From NCBI GenBank assembly GCA_021292105.1, contig CM037868.1, forward strand, positions 29,090,403 through 29,154,402: a stretch of DNA of 64,000 nt, written 5' to 3'. Within the stretch, counting starts at the first letter, position 1. The number at the start of each line of letters is the position of its first letter. Under the pieces are notes generated by a model. The model did not search any database. It was not told the origin of the DNA and saw nothing but the letters and a program-made list of their open reading frames with translations. Made by a program: the position numbers and the translations under genes. Source of the DNA: Anadara kagoshimensis. Taxonomy: Eukaryota > Mollusca > Bivalvia > Arcoida > Arcidae. This document shows, piece by piece, positions 17,701 to 47,345 of the stretch.

Positions 17701-20700
17701 TGATTATGATGCCTAGGTGAAGGACTTTCAGATTTGCACAAATGAAAGGATTATGTCCCCTTGGGGCCCCATAAAGGGGGGAATTGTGAAAATCTTTAAA
17801 AATCATCTCCTCTGAACTTACAAGAGATATAGCTTAGATATTTCATGTGAAACATACTTAGGGCACCTAGTTTCAGATTTGCACAAATCGTAACTGTTGA
17901 GGCCAAAATGGGGAAATGGCAAGGTACTTAAGGGGAAAAATTGCTAAATTGAATGTATTTGTCAATATATCTTGAAAACTATAAACTTTTTGTATAGGCA
18001 TGTATATTGGAATATTGTAGGTATTGGCCTAACGATCATTTTGATATATGAATGAAGGTCATAGATTCAAAGGTCAAGGTCATAGCTGCAAATGAATATT
18101 TAAATGGTTAATTATCTCAAAAACTATAAACTTTTTGTATAGGCATGTATATTAAAATATTGTAGGCATTTGCACAACGATCATTTTGATATATGAATGA
18201 AGGTCATAGGTTCAAAGGTCAAGGTCATAGAATTGAACGAATACTTAAATGGTTAATTATCTCAAAAACTATAAAATATATATGAAATATATATGTATAT
18301 TGAAATATTGTAGCTATTGGCCTATCGATCATTTTGATATATGAATGAAGGTCATAGGTTCAAAGGTCAAGGTCATAGAATTGAACGAATACTTAAATGG
18401 TTAATTATCTCAAAAACTATAAACTTTTTGTATAGGCATGTATATTAGAATATTGTAGGCATTTGCACAACAATCATTTTGATATATGAATGAAGGTCAT
18501 AGGTTCAAAGGTCAAGGTCATAGCTGCGAACAAATATTTGAATGTTTAATTTTCTCAAAAACTATAAATTTTTTGTAAAGGCATGTATATTGGAATATTG
18601 TAGGTATTGGCCTAACGTTCATTTTGATATATGAATGAAGGTCATAGGTTCAAAGGTCAAGGTCATAGCTGCGAATGAATATTTAAATGGTTAATTATCT
18701 CAAAAACTATAAACTTTTTGTATAGGCATGTATATTAGAATATTGTAGGCATTTGCACAATGATCATTTTGATATATGAATGAAGGTCATAGGTTCAAAG
18801 GTCAAGGTCATAGCTGTGAACGAATACTTAAATGGTTAATTATCTCAAAAACTCTTTGTATAGGCATGTATATTGGAATATTGTAGGTGTTGGCCTAATG
18901 AACATTTTAATATACAGATGTTTCAGCTGTTTACTAATAATATATTATGTAGCTAAACTTTAGAGTTGTTATATAATATTATTATAATTAATTTGCAAAA
19001 ATACTTGCATATTATTGGCCATTACTGCTGAAAATTTTGATATTCTCTTTGATTAATGTCATTGACCATTGAACCTCTGCATAAGATATGTACTCTGCCT
19101 CAGGTGAGCGTTAAGGCCCATGGGCCTCTTGTTTATTTTTATATGAGAATGTTCTATTAAAATTACATGTAATGAATTTATTTTTATACCTAGATAGTCT
19201 GACACTTATATAGAATATAGCAAATAGCAGGGTTTCAATTTTAACATTCTCTGTTTGTGTTCATATGTCCACCTGTTAGTTGTTTAGTTTTTGTTTTTGA
19301 GCAATAACTTTTGTTATCTACAACAAAAGAGTTTATATGATACAGGCCTTATTTAGCACCCAAAATACCATGCACAAATTTTCAGTTTTCGTTGCTTATT
19401 AAGTTGCTGGTAACTAATTATGGTAATACAGACAATTTTTGCTTTAAATATAACAAATGTTTTAGGGAGATTAAATTTCAATGTAGAGTAATAAAGATAT
19501 TGAAATTTAATTCCAACAAAAATATTAACTTACCAGGTTAGAAATTCACTAAATGATCCAAATATATGTGTAAAATTGAATTATCTGTTAGTGAAATTCA
19601 GTAGGGAAAACTACCAGAGAGCTGTATTCTGCATGCTCTTTGTTTGGACACCCAAAATATTGGATATATTATGTAATGTGATGGGTTTGTATAGACATTT
19701 ATTAACACAGCTAAATAATTAGTATAACCTGCATGAATGACCAATAAGCTGATGTCATATCCTGGTATGTCTGCATGATTATCTAAGTGTTTTTGGGCCT
19801 CATGTTAGCTAGATGCACAGATGAGCTACATTGTCTTATATTAATTTTCAGTTTAATTCAGTAAACAGTAACAAATCTTTATAGAATTACCACCTCTGTG
19901 AGTTAAAATATATAGACTTTTAGACAGGTGGTCTTTATATAGAGGTTTTTTAGTTGAAGTATGAAGCAAAGTAACCTTAAATCCCAGGTTTTGATGGACA
20001 AGTGGTCATTATAAAGAGGTGATCACTTTACATGTAACAGGTTTTAATGGACAAGTGGTCATTATAAAGAGGTGATCACTATACATGTAACAGGTTTTTA
20101 TGGACAAGTGGTCATTATAAAGAGGTGATCCTATACATGTAACAGGTTTTTATGGACAAGTGGTCATTATAAAGAGGTGATCCTATACATGTAACAGGTT
20201 TTTATGGACAAATGGTCATTATAAAGAGGTGATCACTATACATGTAACAGGTTTTTATGGACAAGTGGTCATTATAAAGAGGTGATCCTATACATGTAAC
20301 AGGTTCTAATGGACAAGTGGTCATTATAAAGAGGTGATCACTATACATGTAACAGGTTTTGATGGACAAGTGGTCATTATAAAGAGGTGATCACTTTACA
20401 TGTAACAGGTTTTAATGGACAAGTGGTCATTATAAAGAGGTGATCACTATACATGTAACAGGTTTTTATGGACAAGTGGTCATTATAAAGAGGTGATCCT
20501 ATACATGTAACAGGTTTTTATGGACAAGTGGTCATTATAAAGAGGTGATCCTATACATGTAACAGGTTTTTATGGACAAGTGGTCATTATAAAGAGGTGA
20601 TCACTATACATGTAACAGGTTTTTATGGACAAGTGGTCATTATAAAGAGGTGATCCTATACATGTAACAGGTTCTAATGGACAAGTGGTCATTATAAAGA

Positions 20701-23700
20701 GGTGATCACTTTACATGTAACAGGTTTTGATGGACAAGTGGTCATTATAAAGAGGTGATCACTTTACATGTAACAGGTTTTAATGGACAAGTGGTCATTA
20801 TAAAGAGGTGATCACTTTACATGTAACAGGTTTTAATGGACAAGTGGTCATTATAAAGAGGTGATCACTATACATGTAACAGGTTTTAATGGACAAGTGG
20901 TCATTATAAAGAGGTGATCACTTTACATGTAACAGGTTTTAATGGACAAGTGGTCATTATAAAGAGGTGATCACTTTACATGTAACAGGTTTTAATGGAC
21001 AAGTGGTCATTATAAAGAGGTGATCACTATACATGTAACAGGTTCTAATGGACAAGTGGTCATTATAGAGAGGTGATCACTATACATGTAACAGGTTTTA
21101 ATAGACAAGTGGTCATTATAGAGAGGTGATCACTATACATGTAACAGGTTTTAATGGACAAGTGGTCATTATAAAGAGGTGATCACTTTACATGTAACAG
21201 GTTTTGATGACATGGAAGTGGTATTTATATACATGTTTTCATTATAAAGAGGTGATCACTATACATGTAACAGGTTTTGATGACAAGTGGTCATTATAAG
21301 AGGTGATCACTATACATGTAACAGGTTTTAATAGACAAGTGGTCATTATAAAGAGGTGATCACTATACATGTAACAGGTTTTAATAGACAAGTGGTCATT
21401 ATAAGAGGTGATCACTACATGTAACAGGTTTTAATGACAAGTGGTCATTATAAAGAGGTGATCACTTACATGTAACAGGTTTTAATAGACAAGTGGTCAT
21501 TATAAAGAGGTGATCACTATACATGTAACAGGTTTTAATAGACAAGTGGTCATTATAAAGAGGTGATCACTATACATGTAACAGGTTTTAATGGACAAGT
21601 GGTCATTATAAAGAGGTGATCACTATACATGTAACAGGTTTTAATGGACAAGTGGTCATTATAAAGAGGTGATCACTTTACATGTAACAGGTTTTAATAG
21701 ACAAGTGGTCATTATAAGAGGTGATCACTATACATGTAACAGGTTTTAATGGACAAGTGTCATTATAGAGAGGTGATCACTATACATGTAACAGGTTTTA
21801 TGGACAAGTGGTCATTATAGAGAGGTGATCACTATACATGTAACAGGTTTTAATGGACAAGTGGTCATTATAGAGAGGTGATCACTATACATGTAACAGG
21901 TTTTAATGGACAAGTGGTCATTATAGAGAGGTGATCACTATACATGTAACAGGTTTTAATGGACAAGTGGTCATTATAGAGAGGTGATCACTATACATGT
22001 AACAGGTTTTAATGGACAAGTGGTCATTATAGAGAGGTGATCACTTTACATGTAACAGGTTTTGATGGACAAGTGGTCATTATAAAGAGGTGATCACTAT
22101 ACATGTAACAGGTTTTAATGGACAAGTGGTCATTATAAAGAGGTGATCACTTTACATGTAACAGGTTTTAATAGACAAGTGGTCATTATAAAGAGGTGAT
22201 CACTATACATGTAACAGGTTTTAATGGACAAGTGGTCATTATAAAGAGGTGATCACTATACATGTAACAGGTTTTAATGGACAAGTGGTCATTATAAAGA
22301 GGTGATCACTTACATGTAACAGGTTTTAATAGACAAGTGGTCATTATAGAGAGGTGATCACTATACATGTAACAGGTTTTAATGGACAAGTGGTCATTAT
22401 AAGAGGTGATCACTATACATGTAACAGGTTTTAATGGACAAGTGGTCATTATAGAGAGGTGATCACTATACATGTAACAGGTTTTAATGGACAAGTGGTC
22501 ATTATAGAGAGGTGATCACTATACATGTAACAGGTTTTAATGGACAAGTGGTCATTATAGAGAGGTGATCACTTTACATGTAACAGGTTTTGATGGACAA
22601 GTGGTCATTATAAAGAGGTGATCACTATACATGTAACAGGTTTTAATGACAAGTGGTCATTATAAAGAGGTGATCACTTACATGTAACAGGTTTTAATAG
22701 ACAAGTGGTCATTATAAGAGGTGATCACTATACATGTAACAGGTTTTAATGGACAAGTGGTCATTATAAAGAGGTGATCACTATACATGTAACAGGTTTT
22801 AATGGACAAGTGGTCATTATAAAGAGGTGATCACTTACATGTAACAGGTTTTAATAGACAAGTGGTCATTATAAGAGGTGATCACTATACATGTAACAGG
22901 TTTTAATGGACAAGTGGTCATTATAGAGAGGTGATCACTATACATGTAACAGGTTTTAATGGACAAGTGGTCATTATAGAGAGGTGATCACTATACATGT
23001 AACAGGTTTTAATGGACAAGTGGTCATTATAGAGAGGTGATCACTATACATGTAACAGGTTTTAATGGACAAGTGGTCATTATAGAGAGGTGATCACTAT
23101 ACATGTAACAGGTTTTAATGGACAAGTGGTCATTATAAGGGTGATCACTTTACATGTAACAGGTTTTATGGACAAGTGGTCATTATAAAGAGGTGATCAC
23201 TACATGTAACAGGTTTTAATGGACAAGTGGTCATTATAAAGAGGTGATCACTTTACATGTAACAGGTTTTAATAGACAAGTGGTCATTATAAAGAGGTGA
23301 TCACTATACATGTAACAGGTTTTAATGGACAAGTGGTCATTATAAAGAGGTGATCACTATACATGTAACAGGTTTTAATGGACAAGTGGTCATTATAAAG
23401 AGGTGATCACTTACATGTAACAGGTTTTAATAGGACAAGTGGTCATTATAAAGAGGTGATCACTATACATGTAACAGGTTTTAATGGACAAGTGGTCATT
23501 ATAGAGAGGTGATCACTATACATGTAACAGGTTTTAATGGACAAGTGGTCATTATAGAGAGGTGATCACTTTACATGTAACAGGTTTTGATGGACAAGTG
23601 GTCATTATAAAGAGGTGATCACTATACATGTAACAGGTTTTAATGGACAAGTGGTCATTATAAAGAGGTGATCACTTACATGTAACAGGTTTTAATAGAC

Positions 23701-26700
23701 AAGTGGTCATTATAGAGAGGTGATCACTATACATGTAACAGGTTTTAATGGACAAGTGGTCATTATAAGAGGTGATCACTATACATGTAACAGGTTTTAA
23801 TGGACAAGTGGTCATTATAGAGAGGTGATCACTATACATGTAACAGGTTTTAATGGACAAGTGGTCATTATAGAGAGGTGATCACTTTACATGTAACAGG
23901 TTTTAATAGACAAGTGGTCATTATAAAGAGGTGATCACTTACATGTAACAGGTTTTAATAGACAAGTGGTCATTATAAAGAGGTGATCACTATACATGTA
24001 ACAGGTTTTAATAGACAAGTGGTCATTATAAAGAGGTGATCACTTTACATGTAACAGGTTTTGATGGACAAGTGGTCATTATAAAGAGGTGATCACTTTA
24101 CATGTAACAGGTTTTAATAGGACAAGTGGTCATTATAAAGAGGTGATCACTTTACATGTAACAGGTTTTGAATGGACAAGTGGTCATTATAAAGAGGTGA
24201 TCACTTACATGTAACAGGTTTTAATGGACAAGTGGTCATTATAAAGAGGTGATCACTATACATGTAACAGGTTTTAATGGACAAGTGGTCATTATAGAGA
24301 GGTGATCACTATACATGTAACAGGTTTTAATGGACAAGTGGTCATTATAGAGAGGTGATCACTTTACATGTAACAGGTTTTAATGGACAAGTGGTCATTA
24401 TAAGAGGTGATCACTTACATGTAACAGGTTTTAATGGACAAGTGGTCATTATAGAGAGGTGATCACTTACATGTAACAGGTTTTAATGGACAAGTGGTCA
24501 TTATAGAGAGGTGATCCTATACATGTAACAGGTTTTAATGGACAAGTGGTCATTATAGAGAGGTGATCCTATACATGTAACAGGTTTTAATGGACAAGTG
24601 GTCATTATAGAGAGGTGATCACTTTACATGTAACAGGTTTTAATGGACAAGTGGTCATTATAAAGAGGTGATCACTTTACATGTAACAGGTTTTAATGGA
24701 CAAGTGGTCATTATAAGAGGTGATCACTATACATGTAACAGGTTTTAATGGACAAGTGGTCATTATAGAGAGGTGATCACATACATGTAACAGGTTTTAA
24801 TGGACAAGTGGTCATTATAGAGAGGTGATCACTTACATGTAACAGGTTTTAATGGACAAGTGGTCATTATAGAGAGGTGATCACTATACATGTAACAGGT
24901 TTTAATGGACAAGTGGTCATTATAGAGAGGTGATCCTATACATGTAACAGGTTTTAATGGACAAGTGGTCATTATAGAGAGGTGATCCTATACATGTAAC
25001 AGGTTCTATTGTACAAAGTTTTTTTCTTATATTTTTTAAGGATTATATATATAAGAAATTCTAACATGACTTGTATTTTTATTTCTTCATATAAACATGG
25101 AAAGAGCCAACGATGGTAAAACAAACAGTATACCCATGGCTGTTCTGTTTTACCCTTACTCACTTTGTGATGTCTTGCTAAGTATTGGTATCAGTGATTG
25201 TGATGTGATTTCAATCATAAAATCATAAAATCATTGTAATCTTTACAGCCAAATTGTGTCAGTGAACTTTTTTTAAAAAAAAAAATAAAACCCACTAAAG
25301 TATACTTCCAAGGAACGAGGTCACAGTGCGTATTTCAATGTTTTTTATTTGAGTCATGTTAGAATAGAAATAATTAACATTTACCCATGGTATATCATCA
25401 ATAATTAACATGCAGCTTAAATAGCAATTGGTGGCTTTGTCATGATTAACCAGCTTATATAGCAATTGGTGGCTTTGTCATGATTATTTAGACAGACAGT
25501 TTTGAGTTGATTTCCAAGTAGTAACTTTATTACAATTTCAAATTCATCAGGTGAGCAGTTTAAGGTCATTTAGTCTCTTATTGCACTATGTATTGTAGGC
25601 TTATTTAGGACATAAGTCTCTAGATATTAATAGAATCTTACACCGGTAACAGGCTAAGACAGAGATATCTCAAAAGAGGATGAATATTTTCTTGTCCAGA
25701 ACGAGCTTTAGCGAGTTCTGGACATTGAAAATATTCATCCGAGTTTGAAATATCTCTGTCTTACCCTGTTACTGGTGTAGGATTCTTTTTCTCACACATT
25801 TGCAACATAAAACATGATTAATAAACATAAAATTGCATAAAATGTGAAGTTTTCATGTCACCATCCGTGCCTGCTGAAAATGACGTAATCAATTTTTGTT
25901 GTCGTTCTCACGTAAAATGATTGTGACATCATCAATTAAACGTGTGTAAGTGATTGTGACGTTGAGAAATTGTTGGTTGACTTCAGAACTTTTCTTAAGT
26001 CCTTTCAACGATAAATCAAGAGCAGGTATAACTACGCGGGAATTTGGCGTGTAGCCTGTCTCAACCCTAGGGTGAGACAAGGAAATTCCACATGGGTAAA
26101 AACGCGGGATTTCCATGTCACAGGTGTGAGAATAGTATGTATTTATTTATACATGTAACAAGACTTATCAAACCTCATAACAACTTAGACAGGCTGTTAT
26201 GTAGAGGTAAGCTATTTGTGCTGCTTATATATATGCTTTGGTTAAATTTTTCAGGGCTTTGGATCCATCTTTTACTGACAAGGGACATTGTACTCCACAA
26301 GAAAACGAACCCACAATACCAAAATCTTTACAGCCAAGTCGTTTGATATGGGATGTTAATCCTACTTTGGAGAATAGCATTATGTCTGCAGTAGACACAG
26401 TGTCAAAGGTACAGTATTAATGCATTTAAACCTGTCTATAAGGCAACACAATGAACTCAGGAAAGATTGTTGTTATATAAGCAGGTGTTGTTTAGATATA
26501 TAAACTCAAACTGATGTATAAAAATGAGTCTTTACAAAAAGCCAGTCAGTGCTTAAGATATGTTAATGGGGAGTAATTTGAACAAGACTCTGATGATCCC
26601 TTACCGTAATTTAATACACTATCAATGCATATAACTTACATTACAATAATAATCATATACCTTAGCTATAAATATTTCCAATTTCACACCAGTAGCTGAT

Positions 26701-29700
26701 GATGTCTTGATATAAGTACAACTGAAATGTTAACACCTTGTTCTTCAGATCCAAATATCATTTTCATCTACATAAAACATGTTAAACCTATGTTTGAATT
26801 TTGGAATGATTTCCTTGATACAACAAAGCATTAATAATTCTGGCATTATAAAGGATTTAGGGAGACTTATAAAAATCATAGAAAAACACAATTTTGGGAC
26901 TTAAAAATACTGTGGTGACAAGTGAGGTGGCAAAGATAATCAGAGCATTACAATGACGGCTTTGTAAATTGATATATTTCAGAATATAGATGACTTAGAT
27001 TTGTGTATCAGGGACCATGATTCCTACGGCAAAGGCTTTATAAAAACATGCAAGGTAAAACTATACTGAAATGAAATTAATTTCTATATTTATGTAGTTA
27101 AAAATGTCCAAATCCCTCCGTTTTATTTTTAGTGAAGTTTCAACAAAGTTGAATTTTACTTTTAATTTAGTCATGCGGGTGAGCGTGCATGTGGGCATGC
27201 AGCATACTGATTTTTTATGAAATTTTGGGCTATGGACTTTAAAATAGCAGTTTCCAGACGTCTTGTTTTCTAATTGCTTGCAGATGTTAAACTAATATTA
27301 AAGATGTGAGACTACCATCCTGAGTAACAGATCAAATGTGAGTTTTGTTTGAGCTCATACATCAAATAGAATATGATATTGCAACTGAACTTATGCACTC
27401 TGGTGCCTATTGATTTTTACCATTGCTTTCTGATGTTAGTAAGACATAACTACAAACATTGAGAATATGATATTTGTTCTCTGTAACTATCTGTATTGTA
27501 ACATAAAGTACAAGTCAGTGTTTTAATACAAGTTTATAAAAGTTTATCATTGTGACAATACAAAGTGACACTGTTTTATTTATTTTTGTACAAGGTTAGT
27601 CCAGATGCTTACATCCAGATGGCATTACAGATTACTTACTACAAGAATGCTGGGAAATTTGTCCTCACATATGAAGCTTCAATGACCAGACTATATTTAC
27701 AAGGTAGAACAGAGACAGTCAGGTCACTGTCTACAGATTCTGTCAAGTTTGTTAAGTAAGTATAGTTCCAGTATCTTTTGACTAAAACTATGTTTTATGC
27801 TCCAGTCAAGATTTTTTCACTTATATTGAGACAGTCATTTTAGGAATGGAGGGAAAAAACCAAGAGTTCCTTGAGAAAATCACCAACATTTTGCAGATGA
27901 ACTGACAAACTTGCTCACACTAGGATCTGCCCTGAGTGGGATTTGAATCTAGGCTGTGATAGGCACTGAATTGTAATCTAGGTAGTGATAGGCATTGAAT
28001 TGTAATCTAGGCTGTGATAGGCACTGAATTGTAATCTAGGTAGTGATAGGCATTGAATTGTAATCTAGGCAGTGATAGGCATTGAATTGTAATCTAGGTA
28101 GTGATAGGCATTGAATTGTAATCTAGGTAGTGATAGGCATTGAATTGTAATCTAGGCTGTGATAGGCACTGAATTGTAATCTAGGCAGTGATAGGCATTG
28201 AATTGTAATCTAGGCTGTGATGGGCATTGGATTGTAATCTAGGCAGTGATAGGCATTGAATTGTAATCTAGGCAGTGATAGGCATTGAATTGTAATCTAG
28301 GTAGTGATAGGCATTGAATTGTAATCTAGGCTGTGATAGGCATTGAATTGTAATCTAGGCAGTGATAGGCATTGAATTGTAATCTAGGCAGTGATAGGCA
28401 CTGAATTGTAATCTAGGCAGTGATAGGCATTGAATTGTAATCTAGGCAGTGATAGGCATTGAATTGTAATCTAGGCTGTGATAGGCACTGAATTGTAATC
28501 TAGGCAGTGATAGCCACTGAATTGTAATCTAGGTAGTGATAGGCACTGAATTGTAATCTAGGCAGTGATAGGCACTGAATTGTAAGCAGGTTCTTTAAAC
28601 CACTTGGCCACCAAGGCCTTGTACTACTTATAATAGAAGTGGATTAACTCCCTTTGTCATCTAAATGAGAGAAATTGGTGTGTATTGTTTGTTGCCAAAT
28701 CATTCAACTCCACACATAGATTTATAGATCACATTCTTTATCTTTATAATTCTAAATTGGGAGACTCTGTTAATGCCATATATTATGACAAACTTGATGA
28801 CTTTAATTTTTCTACGTCAAGTTTCCTTTTTTGTGCAACAAAATACCTGCTTCTCATGTCTATGGGGTATAAATTATTTTCATAATTAATACACTATTAT
28901 AGAGCTTGTTCCCATTGAAGGAACTTTATACAGCAAAGTAAGCTGCTTACAAATGAACTTTTGACTCTGGTATATTACAAGCCTTGGTTTATGAAGCCTC
29001 TCAAACACTTACCCATCCTCACTTCCCTGGTAAAAGTTTATGTGTTATTTTAAGTGCCAGTTTTCAAAGTTTTTGGTAAAATATTTTGGAAAGGAAATGA
29101 ATAACAGTATTTAAACTCAAAAAATGCTATGTTTAAGGAATATGCAAAAAAAAAAAAAATGGACTGCAATACCTGTAAATTCACAGTATGAGCAAATCTT
29201 CCTTCACATACTCTATAAGTAGAAATGTTGACTGGTATGATTAGATTTTTCAGGGTTTTGGCATCAGGGTTTGTTGATATACCTTTAATGATGTCCATGT
29301 GTTTATAGAGATATTTGTAGTTGTTTAGTGACTGCATAGTATTATATACTTACTATATTTTATAAGTACAGTTGTCTAACACTTGGATTAATTGTAGAGC
29401 ATTCCTAGATAAATCAGAATCTAAAGAAACCAAGATTGATTTATTAAGAAAAGCATGTGAATACCATCAGGGTTTATACAGAGATGCCATGAATGGACGT
29501 GGATGTGACAGACATCTGTTTGCTCTTTATGTTGTCAGTAAAGGAATGGGATACGTAAGTATAATGTGAAATTATATCTCAAGACAGGGACTCACAACTT
29601 ATACATGTATAAAATTGATGTATGGTGTGGTTACAAGTCCAACTTTATGTAGGAAACACATTGTACTCATTCATAACATGGAAACTAATGTGTTTTTAAT

Positions 29701-32700
29701 ATGGTTGAAAACTTAATTTGCAAGTTTCCAAAGTTTTAACTTTGTTTTTTGGATTGTGATTTGAACATGGATTGGTAAGTTCGTTTTTGATGAATGAACT
29801 TGATGTACATAACTTTGACATCTAAAACTACTAATATATATAATAAAAGCAATGCAGAATGTGCTATAAAAATAAGGATCAAAATCTTTATCACTACCAC
29901 TTTGATTGGAGATGTTCATCTAGTCAGTCATGACAAAGTCTTCATTACAGGACAAAGTGAACTACACAAGTAACTAGGTGCTTAAAATGTTTTTAACCTA
30001 AAATGTACTGCTATATAAGGCATACTTTCTTGTATTTTAAAATATTAATTCTCTGTGTCAAGTATACTGACTTTGTTTTGTGTAAGTTTTCAGACATCAT
30101 CACAGCTTGCTGAAGGTCAATGTTTGTAGTTTTCTCTCCCTTCTGGATTGATTGTATAAATGAAATAATCTTAACATGGACGCAAAAATTCATTTTGTCT
30201 AATTTTCAATTGGAAAAAATGAAATCATTGCTTATAATTATATTTTTAAAAATAAGAAAACCAAAATAATGCTCTACGATCTTTGAAATTTTTTAACCTT
30301 GGTGTATGAATTTATATGCAAGAGACTCGCTTAGTTAACACGATCATATCATCTATCAATGAACTAGTTCAGAACGCTATGTTTATACTTGGTACAGTCA
30401 CTCACTTATTTCTGAATTCAAAGACCTATGCAATTGTTAAATGTGGAGTTTGACATAAACCCAGAGGACAGAAAATTACAGGGATTTAATGAGAGTGAAT
30501 TTTCAGAATGATGAATGATGGTCTGTGAAGATAATTTGGGAAAAATCGACCGGTGTTTGTTTGTTTACATTCGCAGAAGAACCATTCACTTCTGGTTTAC
30601 AAAAAGTAGTCCCATCCAAGGATTGATGGAACAGCCTTGCTCCAAATAAGGATAGTTACATGGGAACTGGACTTGGATGCTGACCAATCAAACAATGCAT
30701 GACGTAATAGGATGACATTCTGTGACGTAATTGGATAGTTACACGTTACCAAATCAGAGGTCTTGACCCCACACTGTATTCAAGACCAATTGCATGCCAG
30801 TAAAAACAAATAGGTTCATCTTAAGAGGGTGAATTCCAATTGCAAATGTTATAATTGCAAGAAATCAAAGAAATTAAATTATAACAGCTTAATGTAAATG
30901 TATTCTGTTTTGTTTCTATTAAAGGATTCTGAATTTTTAAAGAAAGCGTTAACTATACCTTGGACACTTTCTACATCTCAACAACCGCAGCAACAGATAG
31001 CATCATCACCTGATTGTAATCTCCCACAATACAGACACATGGTAAGTGCCTCTACATCTTAACAACCCCACCGACAGATAGCTTCATCACCTGATTGTAA
31101 TCACCCACAATGCAGACACATGGTAAGTGCCTCTACATCTTAACAACCCCACCAACAGATAGCTTCATCACCTGATTGTAATCACCCACAATACAGACAC
31201 ATGGTAAGTCCCTTTACATCTCAACAACCCCACCAACAAATAGCCTTTTCCGGAATTGTAATCACCCACAATACAGACACATGGTAAGTGCCTCTACATC
31301 TTAACAACCCACCAACAGATAGCCTCATCACCTGATTGTAATCACACACAATACAGACACATGGTAAGTGCCTTTACATCTTAACAACCCCACCAACAGA
31401 TAGCCTTATCCCGGGATTGTAATCACACACAATACAGACACATGGTTAGTCCCTTTACATCTCAACAACCCCACCAACAGATAGCCTTATCCCGGGATTG
31501 TAATCACACACAATACAGACACATGGTAAGTCCCTTTACATCTCAACAACCCCACCAACAAATAGCCTTATCCCGGGATTGTAATCACCCACAATACAGA
31601 CACATGGTAAGTGCCTCTACATCTCAACAACTCCACCAACAGATAGCCTTATCCCGGGATTGTAATCACACACAATACAGACACATGGTTAGTCCCTACA
31701 TCTCAACAACCCCACCAACAAATAGCCTTATCCCGGGATTGTAATCACACACAATACAGACACATGGTAAGTCCCTTTACATCTCAACAACCCCACCAAC
31801 AAATAGCCTTATCCCGGGATTGTAATCACACACAATACAGACACATGGTAAGTCCCTTTACATCTCAACAACCCCACCAACAAATAGCCTTATCCCGGGA
31901 TTGTAATCACCACAATACAGACACATGGTAAGTCCCTTTACATCTCAACAACCCCACCATCAAATAGCCTTATCCTGGGATTGTATCACACACAATACAG
32001 ACACATGGTAAGTCCCTCTACATCTCAACAACCCCACCGACAATAGCCTTATCCTGGGATTGTAATCACACACAATACAGACACATGGTAAGTCCCTTTA
32101 CATCTCAACAACCCCACCATCAAATAGCCTTATCCTGGGATTGTAATCACACACAATACAGACACATGGTAAGTCCCTCTACATCTCAACAACCCCACCA
32201 ACAAATAGCCTTATCCTGAGATTGTAATCACACACAATACAGACACATGGTAAGTCCCTCTACATCTCAACAACCCCACCAACAAATAGCCTTATCCCGG
32301 GATTGTAATCACCCATAATACAGACACATGGTAAGTCCCTTTACATCTCAACAACCCCACCAACAAATAGCCTTATCCCGGGATTGTAATCACACACAAT
32401 ACAGACACATGGTAAGTCCCTTTACATCTCAACAACCCCACCAACAAATAGCCTTATCCCGGGATTGTAATCACCCACAATACAGACACATGGTAAGTCC
32501 CTTTACATCTCAACAACCCCACCATCAAATAGCCTTATCCTGGGATTGTAATCACACACAATACAGACACATGGTAAGTCCCTCTACATCTCAACAACCC
32601 CACCGACAAATAGCCTTATCCTGGGATTGTAATCACACACAATACAGACACATGGTAAGTCCCTCTACATCTCAACAACCCCACCAACAAATAGCCTTAT

Positions 32701-33859
32701 CCCGGGATTGTAATCACACACAATATGGTAAGTCTTCCCCACCCTTTACTGCCTAAATATTTCCTAAGTCTATTTACAGGAATAGCTATCAGATCACCAC
32801 AATAGACATGAGTTATTTTGTCATAGATATGTTTTCCAGTGTCATCAGCACCTACATTATACAATTATTTTCTTTTGATGAGGCAGATATGACCCATATC
32901 CACCGATATCAAAAGACAGTAATTATTTTTTATTATATGACACTTCAAAATGACATATAAAAATTTTGATTTCAATGTAATCAGCAAAGTGATCTCAACA
33001 TTAGCATTATTGGAGATGTTTATCAAGTTGGTAAAGCTTTCTCTTTTAAATAACTTCTTATTATGCTCACTGTACTGTGGATTTCTTTGTGTTAACAACT
33101 TCTTTTGATGACAAAATCACCTCAAGCACTGAGGTTTCTACAGAAGCAAAACATTTACACCACTTGTTATCCACCATTTAATTTTGTGTTGCCAGATTGC
33201 ATCAAAGACAACATTGTGTGCTATCTTTTGATTGGTTGGATAAGTAAAACCTGACAGTTTCCAGAAAGTTCCTATTCTGTTTTTGACTGAAAACTGGTTG
33301 GCCAAGTTTTTGTTTCCATTTGTTTAACTGTTCTGACAACTATTTATGGACTTTATGAGACATTTTTCATTGAATATGACTATATGTACTACTGAAATTG
33401 ACCAGAGAAAAGCAAAACATCCAGTCATATACTAATAATAATGTTTGAATTTCAAGGTCTTATATTCTACACAATGCCATCAACATAATAATATTTTGCC
33501 AGAAGTAAGATTGTTAAAGTTGTGGGGTCAGTGTTAGTTTTACGATGTCATTAGTGCCAACATCAATGTTGAGTTTTATAGAGTTTTTTTTAAAGTCTTA
33601 TTAACAAATACCATCTAGGTTGGAATAGTAATCAAGTAATTCTTGTTTTATATTTCAGTTGTGTCCCGGTGGAGGGTTTGGACCAGTGTCTGATGATGGT
33701 TATGGAGTCTCTTACATGATACCGGGAGATTCTAAAGTATTTTTCCATGTTTCTGCCAAAAAGTCTACCCCTGGTACAAGTGCAACAAAGTTCATGGATC
33801 AGTTGTTTGAAACTCTGGCTGAAATGAGAGAGATATTTGTAACAGAAAATGGTATATGA
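1702..33859 (+). CDS. CPT1: Carnitine O-palmitoyltransferase 1 gene, 15 coding exons, 5' end outside window
   Basis: CPT1 transfers long-chain acyl groups from CoA to carnitine at the mitochondrial outer membrane, the malonyl-CoA-sensitive entry step of fatty-acid import for beta-oxidation. Joining 1702-1856, 2917-3039, 3947-4250, 6712-6816, 6983-7114, 10371-10425, 10906-11035, 11612-11751, 12392-12591, 26255-26408, 26983-27054, 27595-27755, 29398-29554, 30925-31041 and 33659-33859 gives one open frame of 734 residues with GT-AG junctions and matching phases. Two membrane segments (about residues 12-27 and 55-78) are followed by the carnitine/choline acyltransferase domain, with the catalytic His at residue 429 of this fragment (human His473, so about 44 residues are missing upstream). 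Carnitine acetyl- and octanoyltransferases and CPT2 lack this two-segment N-terminus, so CPT1 is the best call. Vertebrate A/B/C subtypes should not be assigned. The start-codon exon was not found in 1-1701. Confidence 0.96.
2478..2857. mobile_element. Small TIR element (MITE-like) in CPT1 intron
   Basis: The ends CAGGGATTTATCAGGG and CCCTTGATGAATCCCTG are inverted repeats, and GGGCC/GGCCC-rich inner arms also pair. The element is about 380 bp, non-coding, and flanked by a possible 5-bp duplication ATATG. The superfamily cannot be fixed from this. Confidence 0.65.
2917..3039 (+). CDS. CPT1: CPT1 exon b: second transmembrane segment
   Basis: The acceptor is TTTTATTTTAG at 2916 and the donor is GGATGT|GTAAGT at 3040. 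The exon completes a split Asp codon and encodes [20 protein letters not shown], the second membrane helix, followed by a basic stretch ([17 protein letters not shown]) matching the mammalian block that ends LLSYHGWM. Both ends of CPT1 therefore face the cytosol, as known for the family. Confidence 0.92.
3786..3828 (+). repeat. (TTA)n microsatellite
   Basis: About 14 tandem TTA/ATT triplets in the intron before exon c. Confidence 0.97.
3947..4250 (+). CDS. CPT1: CPT1 exon c: start of acyltransferase domain
   Basis: The acceptor is GATTTATAG at 3946 and the donor is TTGGTG|GTAAGA at 4251. This is the longest coding exon (304 nt). It encodes the family opening [20 protein letters not shown] and the later [14 protein letters not shown] block, both hallmarks of the choline/carnitine acyltransferase domain. 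Stop codons follow directly in the intron. Confidence 0.96.
5321..5404 (+). repeat. 21-bp tandem repeat, four copies
   Basis: Four near-identical units of AATGTGTATCTGAATTTAAAG. Because 21 is a multiple of three, both strands stay open across it; this is not evidence of a gene. The rest of the intron 4251-6711 holds only this, a 40-bp duplication and a SINE. Confidence 0.95.
5785..5865 (+). repeat. 40-bp direct repeat, two copies
   Basis: Two adjacent copies, each starting ATTGTAAAAATAAAAAAATT and ending GCATACTGTTATCTG, with one difference. Confidence 0.9.
6118..6300 (+). mobile_element. tRNA-derived SINE copy, + orientation
   Basis: The head GGCCTCGGTAATCAAGTAGT resembles a tRNA 5' half with an A-box-like TAATCAAGTAG, and AGTTCCATTCC about 40 bases on resembles a B box. 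The following GGGCAGATTCTTATGTGAGA matches the body of the minus-strand copies at 27790-28619, 35205-35357 and 46470-46650. The 3' end is uncertain. Confidence 0.55.
6712..6816 (+). CDS. CPT1: CPT1 exon d
   Basis: The acceptor is TTATTTTACAG at 6711 and the donor is AGCCAG|GTAAAT at 6817. The exon completes the Trp codon split from the previous exon and encodes [20 protein letters not shown], matching the [20 protein letters not shown] block of mammalian CPT1. A (GT)n tract begins about 19 bases after the donor. Confidence 0.94.
6835..6860 (+). repeat. (GT)n microsatellite after exon d
   Basis: Thirteen GT dinucleotides starting about 19 bases after the exon d donor. Confidence 0.97.
6983..7114 (+). 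CDS. CPT1: CPT1 exon e
   Basis: The acceptor is CTTTATTACAG at 6982 and the donor is ACCAG|GTCAGT at 7115. It encodes [20 protein letters not shown] and then [15 protein letters not shown], matching the mammalian IPLCSAQWERMFNTSRIPG region. A diverged partial copy of this exon's end lies just inside the following intron (about 7124-7172). Confidence 0.95.
7124..7172 (+). repeat. Diverged duplicate of the end of CPT1 exon e
   Basis: CTCAGAAA(A)ACCATTCC and CCAATTTGTATGGCA recur 73 bases after their position in exon e (7057-7100), just inside the intron. The copy has lost the donor and has several substitutions, so it looks like a non-functional partial exon duplication. Confidence 0.85.
8152..8554. 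mobile_element. Nested TIR element inside copy 1
   Basis: ACAGTCGTTTTACCAGTTCC at the left and GGAACTGGTAAAACAACTGT at the right form imperfect inverted repeats of about 22 bp. The stretch is absent from copies 2 and 3 of the host element. No coding capacity is visible. Confidence 0.7.
8559..8789. mobile_element. Second inverted-repeat segment inside copy 1
   Basis: TCGACCGTCC at 8559 and GGACGGTCGA at 8780 are 10-bp inverted repeats enclosing about 210 bp also absent from copies 2 and 3. It could be a separate insertion or the remainder of a larger one containing 8152-8554. Confidence 0.45.
10371..10425 (+). CDS. CPT1: CPT1 exon f, 55 nt
   Basis: The acceptor is GTTATTTCAG at 10370 and the donor is TCAAAG|GTAAGA at 10426. 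It encodes [19 protein letters not shown], matching RIPGEETDTIQHMRDSKH of mammalian CPT1. It is the smallest exon of the gene and follows a 3.26-kb intron. Confidence 0.94.
10906..11035 (+). CDS. CPT1: CPT1 exon g
   Basis: The acceptor is AATATTTCAG at 10905 and the donor is CATCAGG|GTAAGT at 11036. It encodes [18 protein letters not shown] and then a helix ending [17 protein letters not shown], matching the mammalian HIVVYHRGRYFKVWLY and EMEQQMQRIL blocks. Confidence 0.94.
11612..11751 (+). CDS. CPT1: CPT1 exon h
   Basis: The acceptor is TTAATTGTAG at 11611 and the donor is TTCTTT|GTAAGT at 11752. It encodes [19 protein letters not shown] and [14 protein letters not shown], matching the family pattern of Trp/Arg-rich substrate-tunnel sequence followed by NKQSLDAVEKAAFF. 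A long (TC)n tract starts six bases after the donor. Confidence 0.95.
11758..11797 (+). repeat. (TC)n microsatellite next to exon h donor
   Basis: A run of nearly 20 TC dinucleotides six bases downstream of the GTAAGT donor of exon h. Confidence 0.97.
12392..12591 (+). CDS. CPT1: CPT1 exon i: catalytic histidine exon
   Basis: The acceptor is TTTGTTGCTAG at 12391 and the donor is AAAGA|GTAAGT at 12592. It encodes [20 protein letters not shown] followed by [16 protein letters not shown]. The His codon at 12533-12535 is the general base of the family (human His473). The mammalian motif is EHSWADAP and AHLWEY, so two tryptophans are replaced here, by Phe and Val; the catalytic residue is retained. 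The exon is followed by the largest intron of the gene, 13.7 kb. Confidence 0.97.
13288..13547. mobile_element. Hairpin MITE, tandemly duplicated (130 bp x 2)
   Basis: Each copy contains a ~104-bp hairpin (13311-13414 and 13441-13544). The arms run GAGTTTATCCATG..GGGAAATCTCACC and its inverse, and an inner GGGGTTG/CAACCCC pair surrounds the loop. The two 130-bp units look identical, so the duplication is recent. 12592-13287 and 13548-14543 hold no supported gene. Confidence 0.85.
14544..15510. mobile_element. TTGTACAGCGT-TIR element, copy 2
   Basis: Same body as copies 1 and 3 without the 640-bp nested sequence. Its ends are TTGTACGGCGT and ACGCCGTACAA: the same A-to-G change is present at both ends, so the inverted repeats remain perfect. 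The C-rich tract is interrupted (AACCCCAACCCCAGGGGGAG). Confidence 0.85.
15919..15978 (+). repeat. 30-bp direct repeat, two copies
   Basis: Two identical units TGAAATCTGTGAAAACCAAA + ATTCTAGATG in tandem. A run of TCATCTGGTCAACACCTC-like units lies at about 15775-15845. No gene is supported in 15511-16801. Confidence 0.93.
16802..16950. repeat. 149-bp near-perfect palindrome with a 1-nt centre
   Basis: Arms of 74 bp mirror around a single T at 16876 (GATGAAC-T-GTTCATC at the centre). The only visible mismatch is a two-base difference near the outer end (ACTGTAAT versus ACTGCCAT). Such a sequence can extrude as a cruciform. Because of the symmetry, the same peptide-like frame appears on both strands; no gene is implied. 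Confidence 0.95.
17536..19136. mobile_element. AGCTCACCTGAGC element with 146-bp internal repeats, copy 1
   Basis: It starts ATTAGCTCACCTGAGC followed by a short hairpin (GCTGAAAGCTCAGATGAGC) and CGTCGTGTGTCGTG-type repeats. It ends CAGGTGAGCGTTAAGGCCCA then TGGGCCTCTTGTTTA. GCTCACCTG and CAGGTGAGC are inverted near the ends. The interior (18030-18840) has about six ~146-bp repeats, each with TCAAAGGTCAAGGTCA. A shorter copy is at 40685-41766. It is non-coding; the element class is not determined. Confidence 0.85.
19983..25013 (+). repeat. 53-bp satellite array in CPT1 intron 9, ~95 copies
   Basis: The unit is about 53 bp, containing GACAAGTGGTCATTATAAAG, AGGTGATCACT and TACATGTAACAGGTTTT, with palindromes GTGATCAC and TACATGTA. 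Variants (AAAGAGG versus AGAGAGG, AATGG versus AATAG, missing CA of CACTATA) mark sub-families that recur as blocks: a 189-bp stretch at 22306-22494 recurs identically at 23672-23860, an offset of 1366 bp. One unit near 21210 is disrupted. 19137-19982 is non-coding apart from a possible degenerate element end near 19805. Confidence 0.97.
25040..25420. mobile_element. Interspersed element related to the flanks of the 43-bp satellite
   Basis: 25056-25155 (AAATTCTAACATGACTTG..., then CATGGAAAGAGCCAACGATG) matches 47272-47345 left of the 43-bp array. 25301-25410 (TACTTCC..., TATTTCAATG..., ATTTACCCATGGTATAT) matches 59731-59819 right of it. Between them this copy has about one unit-like segment (CGATGGTAAAACAAACAGTA) instead of hundreds. 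Element ends are not defined. A 39-bp direct repeat (AGCAATTGGTGGCTTTGTCA) follows at about 25412-25488. Confidence 0.7.
25633..25785. mobile_element. Fold-back hairpin repeat
   Basis: GAATCTTACACCGGTAACAG at the left pairs with CTGTTACTGGTGTAGGATTC at the right. Inner arms AGACAGAGATATCTC and GATGAATATTTTC also pair, down to TGTCCAGAACGAGC-TTTA-GCGAGTTCTGGACA at the centre. Further TTCTCACAC/GTGTGAGAA near 25788 and 26124 may be the ends of a larger element reaching into 25786-26135. Confidence 0.8.
26255..26408 (+). CDS. CPT1: CPT1 exon j
   Basis: The acceptor is AATTTTTCAG at 26254 and the donor is TCAAAG|GTACAG at 26409. It completes the Glu codon from exon i and encodes a variable loop including DKGHC, followed by [19 protein letters not shown], matching mammalian [20 protein letters not shown]. 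Phase agreement across 13.7 kb of repeat-filled intron supports joining it to exon i. Confidence 0.94.
26983..27054 (+). CDS. CPT1: CPT1 exon k, 72 nt
   Basis: The acceptor is ATATATTTCAG at 26982 and the donor is TGCAAG|GTAAAA at 27055. It encodes 24 residues including [11 protein letters not shown], matching the AFGKGIIKKC segment that lines the CoA/carnitine tunnel. Both ends are phase 0. Confidence 0.93.
27595..27755 (+). CDS. CPT1: CPT1 exon l: carnitine-binding segment
   Basis: The acceptor is TTTTTGTACAAG at 27594 and the donor is GTTAA|GTAAGT at 27756. It encodes [20 protein letters not shown], then the highly conserved [20 protein letters not shown]. The GRTETVRS stretch contacts carnitine in the family. 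Confidence 0.97.
27790..28619 (-). mobile_element. tRNA-derived SINE with an expanded head
   Basis: On the minus strand it starts near 28619 with GCCTTGGTGGCCAAGTGG, a tRNA 5' half with A box TGGCCAAGTGG. The B-box-like GATTCAAATCC is at about 27939-27949 and is followed by a body with GGGCAGATCCTAGTGTGAG. In the other copies the boxes are tens of bases apart; here about 640 bp of 29-bp repeats separate them. It is a transposon relic, not a functional tRNA gene. Confidence 0.7.
27948..28585. repeat. 29-bp minisatellite, ~22 copies
   Basis: The unit is GGCATTGAATTGTAATCTAG + GCAGTGATA. Variants GGCAGTG, GGTAGTG and GGCTGTG, and CATTG/CACTG, alternate. It lies wholly within the tRNA-like head of the SINE at 27790-28619. 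Confidence 0.96.
28688..29010 (+). pseudogene. Reverse-transcriptase relic
   Basis: The + frame from 28688 reads [20 protein letters not shown], resembling the (F/Y)IDD catalytic block and following NNSKFGDYV of a metazoan retroelement RT, then [10 protein letters not shown]. After a frameshift [11 protein letters not shown] appears, and about 28944-29008 reads [15 protein letters not shown]. These peptides occur in that order in such proteins. Asp-to-His in the catalytic block, a deletion between the first two blocks and frameshifts show it is dead. The element family is not certain. 29011-29397 holds nothing further. Confidence 0.55.
29398..29554 (+). CDS. CPT1: CPT1 exon m
   Basis: The acceptor is TTAATTGTAG at 29397 and the donor is GGATAC|GTAAGT at 29555. 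It encodes a charged helix and then [20 protein letters not shown] and FALYVVSK, matching mammalian GIDRHLFCLYVVSK. The preceding intron holds the 29-bp minisatellite and a reverse-transcriptase relic. Confidence 0.96.
30925..31041 (+). CDS. CPT1: CPT1 exon n: source of an 81-bp tandem array
   Basis: The acceptor is TTTCTATTAAAG at 30924 and the donor is CACATG|GTAAGT at 31042. It encodes [20 protein letters not shown], with the family STS motif that contacts carnitine and the intermediate, followed by [19 protein letters not shown]. The last ~71 nt of the exon plus the first 10 nt of the intron are repeated about 21 times downstream, each copy keeping the donor, so the annotated donor is the first of many near-identical ones. 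It was chosen because reading past it meets an in-frame TAA at 31060-31062. Confidence 0.93.
31042..32735 (+). repeat. 81-bp tandem array of exon n end plus splice donor, ~21 copies
   Basis: Each unit joins a copy of the last ~71 nt of CPT1 exon n (ACATCTCAACAACC ... CACAATACAGACACATG) to the first ~10 nt of the intron (GTAAGTCCCT). Units are 81 bp, with a few losing one to three bases. Nearly all keep ATG|GTAAGT; two have ATGGTTAGT. The first two, the fourth and the fifth copies carry TAA where the exon has CAA. Copies from about 31442 on are much more alike, and runs 31442-31744 and 32328-32756 are open. 32736-33658 is otherwise plain intron. Confidence 0.96.
33659..33859 (+). CDS. CPT1: CPT1 exon o: terminal coding exon
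   Basis: The acceptor is TTTATATTTCAG at 33658 and the stop codon TGA is at 33857-33859. It encodes [20 protein letters not shown], the conserved C-terminal block of carnitine acyltransferases, then a beta strand ([11 protein letters not shown]) and a final amphipathic helix ending EIFVTENGI. Length and end position fit animal CPT1. Confidence 0.97.
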   Translation: MCPGGGFGPVSDDGYGVSYMIPGDSKVFFHVSAKKSTPGTSATKFMDQLFETLAEMREIFVTENGI

Positions 33860-36649
33860 TTGTAAGTGATAGTGACGTTTACATTCTATTCTCAATGTTA
33901 CATAGATATGGTATGAAAATTTGAATGGTGTGAGGAATGGTATGAAAGTCACTGCATGGTTAGATTTTTAGATTTTTAACCTTTGATATATGATATCATT
34001 GGGACAAATGTTCCAGTAGATTTTTAATACAGTAAAACCTTAATGTAAACTCCATGGAAGGATAAAAAGTGGTTTCAATAAACTGGGAATTTTATATAGA
34101 TGATAATTATTTGTAAAGTACAGTACATTTGTACAGTATACAGTTATTTCATGGGTGTTTTAGGAACAGACATATTTGTTGTCCCGAGGTTTCAGGGTTT
34201 AACCTGTGAAACTGTTGCCCAAGGCTAATGGGTCATCCCAGATACCTAGGGAAGACATATTGGGGTAGTTTTAGACAGGGTACAATAGATGAATGGGGTT
34301 TATATAGATGATAGTATTACATCAAATTAGTACATTCAGTTGGTGTAACTTTGGACTGGTGGGGTTTATATAGAGATGGACTGTTGTGCAGATTTCATGA
34401 CAGAAAACATAATTTAAATTTATACATATCATTATAATCCAAAATTCATACAATTAGACATACTATACATTAAGAAGAAACATTAGCGGTAGGAAACTTT
34501 TGTGGTTTTAATCTTATAAACTATTTAGTGGTAAGAAATTCTTACGATTCAAACTGTGGGAAAAGTGTACTAAGGGAAATAAGAAATTTTTGCTTACAGT
34601 ACATGACACATTTGGTTACAGAATATCTTAAAATTTAACAAAATAATTACAATATCAAATTTGTCAGATTTAAGTAAATGAAAATCTTGGTATAAGAATG
34701 ATTGTGAAACCAGGGTCAGTCAGTATTTAACGGTTAAGACTAGAGTTCTCATTTTTATATCAAATTTTCTCTTAAATTAAAAAAAAAACCATGGTTTTTA
34801 CAATTTTTAAGTGTGTTTTTAATTTTTAACTAGTGTCTAATTTTCTTCATATAAACTAGGTTTCTTCAGCAGTGATCACAAGGTGTGATGATGTTTTTAT
34901 TTACAGTGCTGAAATAAACCAGCTACTCAATTGTATCTATTAATTAATATATAAAAAATTAATTTGACAGCTTTTTAAACATCAACTTTTATGATTGAAA
35001 AATTGAATTTCAATTTGTTTTTAGATGGAATATAAACTTAGTACCTTTTTTTAACACTTTTACATAACTGATTCAATTATACAATGTACAAAAATATCAC
35101 CAAAATTAAAATTTAGTCCTTAAATCCATAAATGAGTAATGGTTTGTTATGCCACAATCAAAAGTATTTCACATACATGTTTATCAAGGCAGTTGGTTAA
35201 AAAATTGTGTAGGAAAACAAACCCCCTGAAGAAAACCACTGACTTTGGTCAGATAAACTGACAATGTTCTCACACTAGAATCTGCCCAGGTGAAATTGTG
35301 GTGAAAGATGCTCTGAATCATAAGCATGTGTATTGGACCACTTGGCTACCAAGGATCAAAAATCTATTGATATACATAAAGAAACAAAATCAAAAAGAAC
35401 AAATGTCATAAACAATATATATCAGTAGAATTAAGTCCAGACTATCACACTGTCAGATAGATAAAAAGTTAATTTCTTCCATCCCAGATAGAAAAATCCA
35501 TAAAAAAGTGGGATAAGATATCTCCATTTTGTTCCCCTCTACAAGATAGTGTACTCGCTCTTTTTCAATATTGAAGGTGTATCAATAGGTTAACACTGAT
35601 TTTAAATTGCAAAATTGTACTTTGTGGTGCAAGAAAAAGAATTAATCACTACTTGTACTGCGAGATAGGGGATTCTCAACCTTTATTTTGATATATAGAT
35701 ATATTAGATATTATATACACAGCAACAATTATTATGGACCAAGTATATTAGAACTCGGGTTGAGGTTTCTCTGTCTGTCACCATAAGTTGTGATAGATTC
35801 TATAATTGTTATATTCTATAGATGTAATTTGTATCAGACATATAATAATTCTGACACAGACACAGTTACAGTTATGATATGATTAATCTGGAACAATATA
35901 TATATATATATATAGTCGTAATGTAACTCATTGTTATAATCAGAATCAGGATGATACATATCTGTCTCATATATAGCCTGGAAGAATGTGTTTGATGTGT
36001 GTACATTATGTTGGTTGCCATGATCATGGGATTGAAGAATTTTTTAACACTTTTTAGCAATAAAAAAAAAATGTGAGGAATCTATCACATTGATGAAATA
36101 GTAAAAAAAAGAAATATTTTTGGGGTGAAGGGAAGGGGGGGTTATTACAAATTTATTTCCAGAAGAAAATATTTCTGGTTGAATTCACCCTTTTATACAT
36201 AAAAAACTATAATTTATTTTCCCGTGAAAGCTGATTAAATTTTACAGAATTACTATTTTTAAGAGATTATAGTCACATAGAATCTCAGTTTGTGTATCTG
36301 ATGTACACAGTGTATTATGTCTCTCTGTAACAAAACAGCGGACACAGGTAGATAAAGTTGTTATATTTTGTAATTTTCAGGATACAGCTTTATGTGACAT
36401 TACAGTTTTGTTTTCTGTAGTGTTGTCTACAGACAGTACCAGTAAATTTATTGATATTTACTTGAGGATTTAACCTTGATATATGCACTAGATGGAAGTA
36501 ATTATAATCTTTTAGATTTTCAGTTACTGTAAACTAACATTTATTTGCAGATATTAACTTTAGCAATTCTCTTACCAAAATCATTTTGTAACTATTAACT
36601 TGTTACAATATGGACTATAGCTGAATATTTGTTATAAATAAAACCATTT
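33860..36649 (+). other. CPT1 3' flank, possible 3' UTR
   Basis: No further coding is supported. AATAAA hexamers at 34077-34082 and 34913-34918 are candidate poly(A) signals, but I cannot choose between them. An (AT)n tract is at about 35896-35913. A SINE copy lies at 35205-35357. Confidence 0.4.
35205..35357 (-). mobile_element. tRNA-derived SINE copy, minus orientation
   Basis: On the minus strand it begins CCTTGGTAGCCAAGTGGTCC (A-box-like TAGCCAAGTGG). The body GGGCAGATTCTAGTGTGAGA matches the copies at 6118-6300 and 27790-28619. The B box is degraded. The head has no 29-bp expansion. Confidence 0.6.
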
Positions 36650-40684: not shown

Positions 40685-41766
40685 TTAGCTCACCTGAGCC
40701 AATAGGCTCAGATGAGCTATTGCTATCTATCACCGTCCGTCGTGCGTCGTCCGTCGTGCGTAAACTTTACATTTTAATCTTCTCCTCCAAAACTACTGAG
40801 CCAAATTTGATGAAACTTGGTGATTATTATGCCTGGGTAACAGGCTTTCAAAATTATGTTCGGGGCTTGACCACGCCCAACAATATGGCTGCCATTACTA
40901 TAAATAGCCAAAAGACAAAAAAATCTTTTTCTCTGAAACCAAAAGGTACAGGCAAATTTTGATTAGATATTTGGATTCAGCATACCTGGGAACATTAAAA
41001 TTGTGTTTTTCATGAAAATTGGACGAAAATTAGGTTACGCGTTTTTTGCGTAAAATTACATTATTTTTAAAATGAGACATTTATTGCTATAACTTCAAAA
41101 CGGCTGAAGATAATTGTATGGAGTTTTCACTGTTGATCTTGTCTTGCGATTTCTTCCGATTGATGTCAAGGTCAAAGGTCAAGGTCATGTCCCAGTTTTT
41201 GACCTTTGATAAAAAATGCTATTTTTTAAACATTTCTGGTGATAATGACGTAGGATTTTTGGTTAAATGTAGGTATTGACATGACGATCATTTTGATATA
41301 TCGATCAAGGTCATGGGTTCAAAGGTTAAGGTCACAGATGTACAACTAAATAGTTAATTATCTATAGACATGTATATTAGAATATTTAGGTATTATCCTA
41401 ATGATCATTTTGATATATGAATGAAGGTCATGGGTTCAAAGGTCAAGGTCACAGATGCGAATGAATACCTAAATGGTTAATTATCTTAAAAACTATTAAC
41501 TTTTTTAATAGGCATGTATATTAGAATATTGTTGGTAATGGCACAATGGTGATTTTGATATATGAATGAAGGGCATGGGTTCAAATGTCAAGGTCACAGA
41601 AACAAACAAGTACTGAAATGATTATTTATCTCAAAAACTATAAACTTTTTGTATAGGTATGTATATTAGAATATTGGCCTAATTATCATTTTGATATTTG
41701 AATGAAGCTCATGGGTTCAAATGTCTAGGTCACAGGTGAGCGTTAAGGCCCATGGGCCTCTTGTTT
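40685..41766. mobile_element. AGCTCACCTGAGC element, copy 2
   Basis: It starts TTAGCTCACCTGAGCCAATA with the same CGTCGTGCGTCGTC motif. It ends CAGGTGAGCGTTAAGGCCCA then TGGGCCTCTTGTTTA, the same ends as 17536-19136. It has fewer and more diverged ~146-bp internal repeats, several retaining AGGTCAAGGTCA. Confidence 0.87.
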
Positions 41767-47264: not shown

Positions 47265-47345
47265 ATATTTGTAATTCTAACATGACCTGCGTTTTCCTTC
47301 ATATGAAACATGAAGAGAGTCAGCCGTGGTATAACAATATACACA
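47265..47345. mobile_element. Left flank of the 43-bp array, part of an interspersed element
   Basis: AATTCTAACATGACCTGCG followed by TTCATATGAAACATGAAGAG and AGTCAGCCGTGGTATAAC matches 25057-25125. The first satellite unit is continuous with it, so the array appears to grow from inside the element. Confidence 0.7.

Follow-up and report, generated by a model that had tools for sequence, protein, structure and literature searches.

Why should the end of a coding exon, together with the splice donor behind it, be repeated in tandem into the following intron, and is such an array a switch acting on its gene, an intron in the making, or a tolerated product of a repeat-prone genome? The question is raised by a CPT1-like gene in the window, by which we mean the whole stretch of 64,000 nucleotides analysed here (C12:29090403-29154402, in a genome of 1.115 Gb in 36 contigs that is an animal's to judge from its genes). 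A preliminary description of this DNA held that an exon end of CPT1 and its donor had been tandemly amplified, and proposed that the resulting donors could tune CPT1 output by unproductive splicing, or sequester U1. The account that we consider likely is a plainer one, namely a minisatellite of the mirage type, begun when a stretch spanning a 5' splice site was duplicated in tandem, grown within the intron and tolerated there.

A minisatellite with multiple splice donor sites was reportedly found in the human gene IFI6 (6-16, G1P3) by Turri, Cuin and Porter in 1995. The IFI6 unit is short, 12 bp, and consists mostly of the donor itself, and its variants encode isoforms. In the excerpted account of this gene the minisatellite lies at the donor of an exon, with downstream repeat units serving as donors (PMC4526556). 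Mirages were named in amphioxus, for minisatellites lying over exon-intron boundaries, and excerpts of the two reports list Adh3, the globins BflGb6 and BflGb9, troponin C and PGBD5 as the genes concerned, with unit numbers that are unstable and with RT-PCR suggesting that splicing is undisturbed (PMC3087553, PMC3902484). Human segmental duplications hold variable minisatellites, some of them at exon-intron boundaries, which according to the excerpted study can alter gene structure (PMC2812944), and an earthworm metallothionein gene carries intronic minisatellites, for which the excerpted text describes no donor inside the units. A narrow literature query for arrays in CPT genes returned no match.

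Results

The array at the exon end

The CPT1-like gene lies on the + strand from ~4 kb to 33.86 kb of the window, as judged from exon matches to PF00755, and its features around the array are collected in Table 1. Joined to the next exon, the exon at 30925-31041 matches Pfam PF00755 (carnitine acyltransferase) at E=2.2e-13, in agreement with the CPT1 identity first given to it, and the acceptor that had been placed at 33658 does end there in AG. A search of 30000-34500 for RNA families found none at the gathering threshold.

Table 1. Coordinates, in window positions, of the features of the CPT1-like gene around the array (a slash marks the exon end)
Feature	Position	Strand	Remarks
CPT1-like exon	26980-27057, approximate	+	
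CPT1-like exon	27589..27755, start approximate	+	single donor at 27756 in the window
CPT1-like exon preceding the array exon	29398..29554	+	ends GGATAC/GTAAGT; PF00755 match C12:29119795-29119953
Array-bearing exon	30925..31041	+	39 residues; phase 0 at both ends
81-bp tandem array	30970..32727	+	exon copy and 21 further units; from TRF and unit table
First donor, GTAAGT	31042..31047	+	
21 additional donors	31123..32733, starts 31123 to 32728	+	GTTAGT at 31445 and 31688; otherwise GTAAGT
Last array unit	32655..32733	+	8 nt shorter; runs into ordinary intron
MITE-like dispersed repeat in intron	32853..33441, approximate	+	
Possible decayed repeat unit before the acceptor	33603..33634	+	weak
Last coding exon	33659..33859	+	ends NGI, then stop

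TRF reports a repeat at 30970-32725 with a period of 81, 21.8 copies and 94% matches, each unit being made of 72 nt of exon end and 9 nt of intron start. Counting the exon's own, 22 donors run from 31042 to 32728, of which 20 read ATG/GTAAGT and two ATG/GTTAGT; these counts confirm both the tandem amplification of exon end with donor and the statement that nearly all copies keep ATG/GTAAGT. The further claim that each added unit keeps the reading frame holds for 14 of the 21 spacings between donors, which measure 81 nt, but not for the array as a whole, which is out of frame because the spacings differ (80 nt in five cases, 79 nt and 73 nt in one each). Distal frames are open for as much as 145 codons from stop to stop, so the long open distal copies that had been pointed out are real, and some of the single-base homopolymer deletions may be residual assembly errors.

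Other repeats found by TRF in the window are a 43-bp minisatellite of ~286 copies (12.3 kb, 47321-59594), downstream of the CPT1-like gene, a 53-bp minisatellite of ~95 copies (19985-25016) in an intron of the same gene, and similar 145-bp units in tandem at 17968-18914 and 41364-41676. A short dispersed repeat of ~200 bp lies at 62889-63087; it recurs at dozens of loci with 76-84% identity, and many of these copies have inverted pieces next to them.

Predicted consequences for splicing

The first donor, at 31042, is the sole one of the 22 that joins 33659 in frame without an early stop. Messages using any of the 21 alternative donors (2 to 22) would all enter the in-frame TAA at 31060..31062 (+), lying 60 to 1665 nt ahead of the junction; the stop at 31060 and its expected effect on isoforms spliced from distal donors thus both stand, in 21/21 predicted messages. 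The 21 downstream copies of a similar donor would be expected to compete with the first, and we infer that the first would nonetheless be used preferentially.

A second copy of the region

Colinear with the window is a second copy of the region at C12:28716000-28755999, in which the eight longest blocks are 94-98% identical. Matches extend from the first kilobases of the window through 46 kb and resume at 61.5-63.1 kb, the latter with a counterpart at C12:28.77 Mb on the same contig, and the second copy is either a retained allele or the product of a recent duplication. A CROT-like gene is also present twice on C5, in opposite orientation and 1.5 Mb apart (50.98-51.01 and 52.44-52.47 Mb), and this pair, like the C12 pair, perhaps consists of haplotypes left in the assembly.

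The array of the second copy has 34 donor positions, against 22 in the window, so that a difference in unit number is borne out between two copies on one contig. Of its donors 29/34 are GTAAGT and 5/34 are altered, the exon's own among the latter. Between the two places the array units differ, while the unit copy inside the exon is unchanged and the shortened last unit is shared. Over nine exon alignments (1801 columns including flanks) two coding substitutions separate the copies, but the second-copy exon that matches 29398-29554 has a 2-nt coding deletion, and one G is missing at the donor of its array exon, which points to either a broken copy or consensus error. Consensus errors may indeed be present in the second copy, since many of the changes in its array consist of the loss of a single base from a homopolymer. 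The second copy of the region also has, at a different exon of the gene, a 28-bp duplication across the donor, in two copies, where the window has a single one (27742-27769; donor 27756); this is the seeding of an array at its simplest.

Variation among units

Columns 27, 30 and 62 set the exon copy apart from each of the 21 array units in the window. Identity of the window units to it ranges from 72 to 93%, with the shortened last unit lowest, and the units nearest to it in sequence (2, 3 and 5) are all exon-proximal. The distal units are more uniform, as had been stated; that their homogenisation might reflect selection on the donor, which had been suggested alongside recent expansion, is in turn unsupported. 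With the exon copy and the shortened last unit left out, 1/9 donor columns are variable in the window versus 24/81 overall (P=0.19), and among 51 units of both copies, again without exon copies and shortened last units, the figures are 4/9 versus 34/81 (P=0.70). Counted as changed cells, the window gives 2/180 for the donor versus 68/1440 (Fisher P=0.019), a value in the opposite sense that we discount because the copies are not independent; both copies together give 6/459 versus 207/4131 across all columns, and 20/81 nine-column blocks have as few changed cells as the donor. The 51-unit count is without the misaligned second-copy unit b2 (74 nt, exon-adjacent), and with it the donor has 9/468 changed cells and P=0.97.

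Variable columns in the window number 8, 8 and 6 for the three codon positions, and variation that is blind to codon position offers no indication of translation of the units. A coding repeat protein is ruled out by this lack of bias, by the frame-breaking spacings and by units that carry TAA (4/20 in the window, 10/31 in the second copy).

Donor arrays elsewhere in the genome

A genome search for AGGTAAGT three times over, within steps of 48-78 nt, had 2536 matches. The 100 array places that were listed, which lie on C1 and C2 only, form 10 clusters, and three of the five clusters whose flanks were inspected begin at family-confirmed exon ends: a ZIP transporter exon at C1:9.71 Mb (E=3.3e-9), a 7B2 exon at C2:8.29 Mb (E=1e-11) and a TAF1B-like exon at C1:10.07 Mb (E=9.3e-12 for exons hand-joined over the array; 9.6e-4, under Pfam's cut-off, for the exon alone). 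The array at C1:18.34 Mb starts at an open frame without family, and that at C1:51.2 Mb has no exon at its start. Periods at the four arrays that begin at exon ends or the open frame are 71, 49, 70 and 60, three of which are not multiples of 3. A ATGGTAAGT array on C6 is left uncounted, the flank examined being its downstream side.

The same count of three for the permuted octamer AGTGAAGT gave 2017 matches and for its reverse 1436, and over the initial 25.6 Mb of C1 distinct clusters number three for AGGTAAGT versus four for AGTGAAGT. Reversed AGGTAAGT in threes gave 927 matches, although as a single word the reversed octamer is the commoner one in the genome (55,194 versus 44,761), and this shortfall of reversed-word arrays would hint that donor arrays are enriched. 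Long arrays make up most of the match counts, however, and with the permuted octamer nearly as frequent as AGGTAAGT in matches, and ahead of it in those clusters, we do not claim an enrichment, although a modest one may be present. Tandem repeats (period >=10, >=3 copies) make up 37% of the window, and at the same threshold 16.8% of 78.5 kb from eight other regions, four of which belong to the second copy. The permuted-octamer arrays and this high tandem-repeat content fit tandem duplications that arise at random and now and then include the end of an exon, and the presence of like arrays at unrelated genes favours a general mutational cause.

Position of the intron

Six acyltransferase paralogues from this genome, their introns placed from open frames and splice signals, all lack an intron at the position of the array. 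A CPT1 gene on C9, a CRAT-like gene on C3 and a CROT-like gene on C5 have in common an intron after STSQ and lack one before GGGFGP/FGPVVPDGYG, and the relatives on C6, C2 and C16 have neither the STSQ intron nor one on the GGGFGP side. The window gene has no STSQ intron but has one between HM and LCPGGG; the array sits between these two places, old and new. When the CPT1-like gene of the window (26980-33859) is compared with the C9 CPT1 gene, 0/4 compared C-terminal intron positions are in common, as if the introns of the window gene had been lost and regained. The dispersed repeat at 32853-33441 recurs at no fewer than 38 other loci with 71-77% identity, some with inverted ends nearby; 40 of 555 candidates were scored, two of these being the array locus and its second copy.

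Discussion

The functions first proposed for the array fare poorly against this evidence. A splicing rheostat, in which the number of downstream donors would set the loss to stop-containing isoforms and so tune CPT1 output, seems improbable to us. It could draw on the identical early stop that follows all 21 alternative donors, and on the precedent of human IFI6, where in the excerpted source two downstream repeat units act as donors (PMC4526556), but the donor columns of the array are as variable as the others, arrays of like kind lie at unrelated genes, and the second copy, which may hold consensus errors, has 5/34 donors altered, that of the exon included. Sequestration of U1 snRNP by dense consensus donors in the nascent transcript is scarcely credible: 22 near-consensus donors do stand within 1.7 kb, yet they add 22 sites to a genome with 44,761 AGGTAAGT octamers alone, and what support there is comes from sequence alone. 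Whether taken as tuning by unproductive splicing or as a U1 sponge, a putative function thus finds no positive support. We give as little credence to the assembly as the source of the array, a suspicion aroused by the numerous single-base deletions in homopolymers, chiefly in the second copy, since two places in the assembly share the edges of the array and yet differ in unit number and variants; the unit count itself may be off.

An origin of the intron from the array deserves closer attention, although we think it doubtful. In this case a 27-codon segment, STSQ...HMVSA/P, would have been duplicated in frame, and the GTAAGT within its VS codons recruited as donor. The position is absent from 6/6 paralogues, three of which have the STSQ intron that the window gene lacks; the unit begins at STSQ, and its 81 nt are 27 codons; and GTA AGT GCC would read V-S-A, in the place of the I-S-A that stands ahead of GGGFGP in the C9 gene. 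GTAAGT gives V-S in every phase-0 intron, however, the unit lengths of 3/4 arrays at other genes are not multiples of 3, and with 0/4 C-terminal introns common with the C9 gene novel positions are not specific to the array, so that the coincidence of array and intron is less telling. Once the dispersed repeat is set aside, the intron after the array holds ~340 nt of other sequence, and the best plus-strand match to the unit consensus in this intron, 33603-33634, adjoins the acceptor; its score is reached by 0.28% of 1414 background segments and, in 3 bins, at 8/2930 AG sites counting its own, and the start of the next exon, TTGTGTCCC, matches GTAAGTCCC at 6/9 places. Against this, the acceptor lies outside the array, nhmmer at E<=10 does not list the remnant, 83/12402 windows on both strands reach its score, and its shorter 3' part has P=0.045 versus shuffles, while a right-anchored comparison is equalled or bettered at 4/600 random AG sites and at 1/8 other exon starts of the gene (27595). 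The donor, in sum, comes from a duplicate copy, and the acceptor is tied only to the weak remnant at 33603-33634. An intron being born, by way of a 27-codon amplification, a GTAAGT donor, a decayed terminal unit, a transposable element and a change from VSA/P to LCP that keeps length, is accordingly a possibility that we rate as low. If this is true, introns in a genome where exon-end arrays recur would go on being gained and relocated by way of such arrays.

The tolerated minisatellite that we favour would start from the duplication, by slippage or unequal exchange, of a short piece of DNA holding an exon end and its donor, a step seen as the 28-bp difference between copies at another exon of the same gene. 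With the extra units placed downstream of an intact exon and donor, the duplication would be nearly neutral, because the first donor still yields the normal message. Unequal exchange and conversion would then expand and homogenise the interior, as is supported by the differing unit numbers and the homogenised units. Donor 1 would mostly be joined to the acceptor at 33658, and leakage to donors 2-22 would yield messages whose stop, the TAA at 31060, precedes the last junction by 60 nt or more and which would be expected to be degraded. Counted against this reading are the expected competition between donors, the fewer changed cells in the donor and the deficit of reversed-octamer arrays, and the unusual position of the intron (0/6 paralogues) is unexplained by plain growth over an old donor. 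The array seems to be a side product of a genome prone to forming repeats, and not a switch with proof behind it.

Like the amphioxus mirages, as far as excerpts describe these, the CPT1 array has boundary-spanning units with splice signals and a homogenised interior from which the edges are left out. The unit number of the mirages is unstable, and the CPT1 array has 22 and 34 units in two copies that may be alleles or recent duplicates. It spans a real boundary (a PF00755 exon, 72 + 9 nt), keeps its splice signals (20/22 GTAAGT and 2/22 GTTAGT) and excludes its edges from homogenisation (three exon-only columns; a shared last unit). It differs in its size, 22-34 units compared with 6 and 3 in the BflGb6 haplotypes given in those excerpts, in lying in another gene and, to judge from the genome size of 1.1 Gb, probably in another animal group, and in being confined to the donor side. 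IFI6 likewise has its minisatellite at an exon donor, but each further donor of the CPT1 array adds a stop. The repeats of human segmental duplications, with units of 30 bp on average repeated four times, are few in copies, unlike the CPT1 array, and in the excerpted study their boundary cases are tied to novel introns, many with transcript support (PMC2812944). The CPT1 array is real and well preserved, and it belongs to a known kind that recurs in this genome.

Tandem duplications across 5' splice sites are found in this genome, which probably lies outside the cephalochordates, the group in which mirages were named, at four or more family-confirmed exon ends and in one two-copy case. The arrays can reach dozens of near-identical donors beside an intact exon. 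Each of them lets nature itself test how the spliceosome chooses one donor among many alike, and whether carrying such an array does no harm, costs a little or gives rise to new introns.
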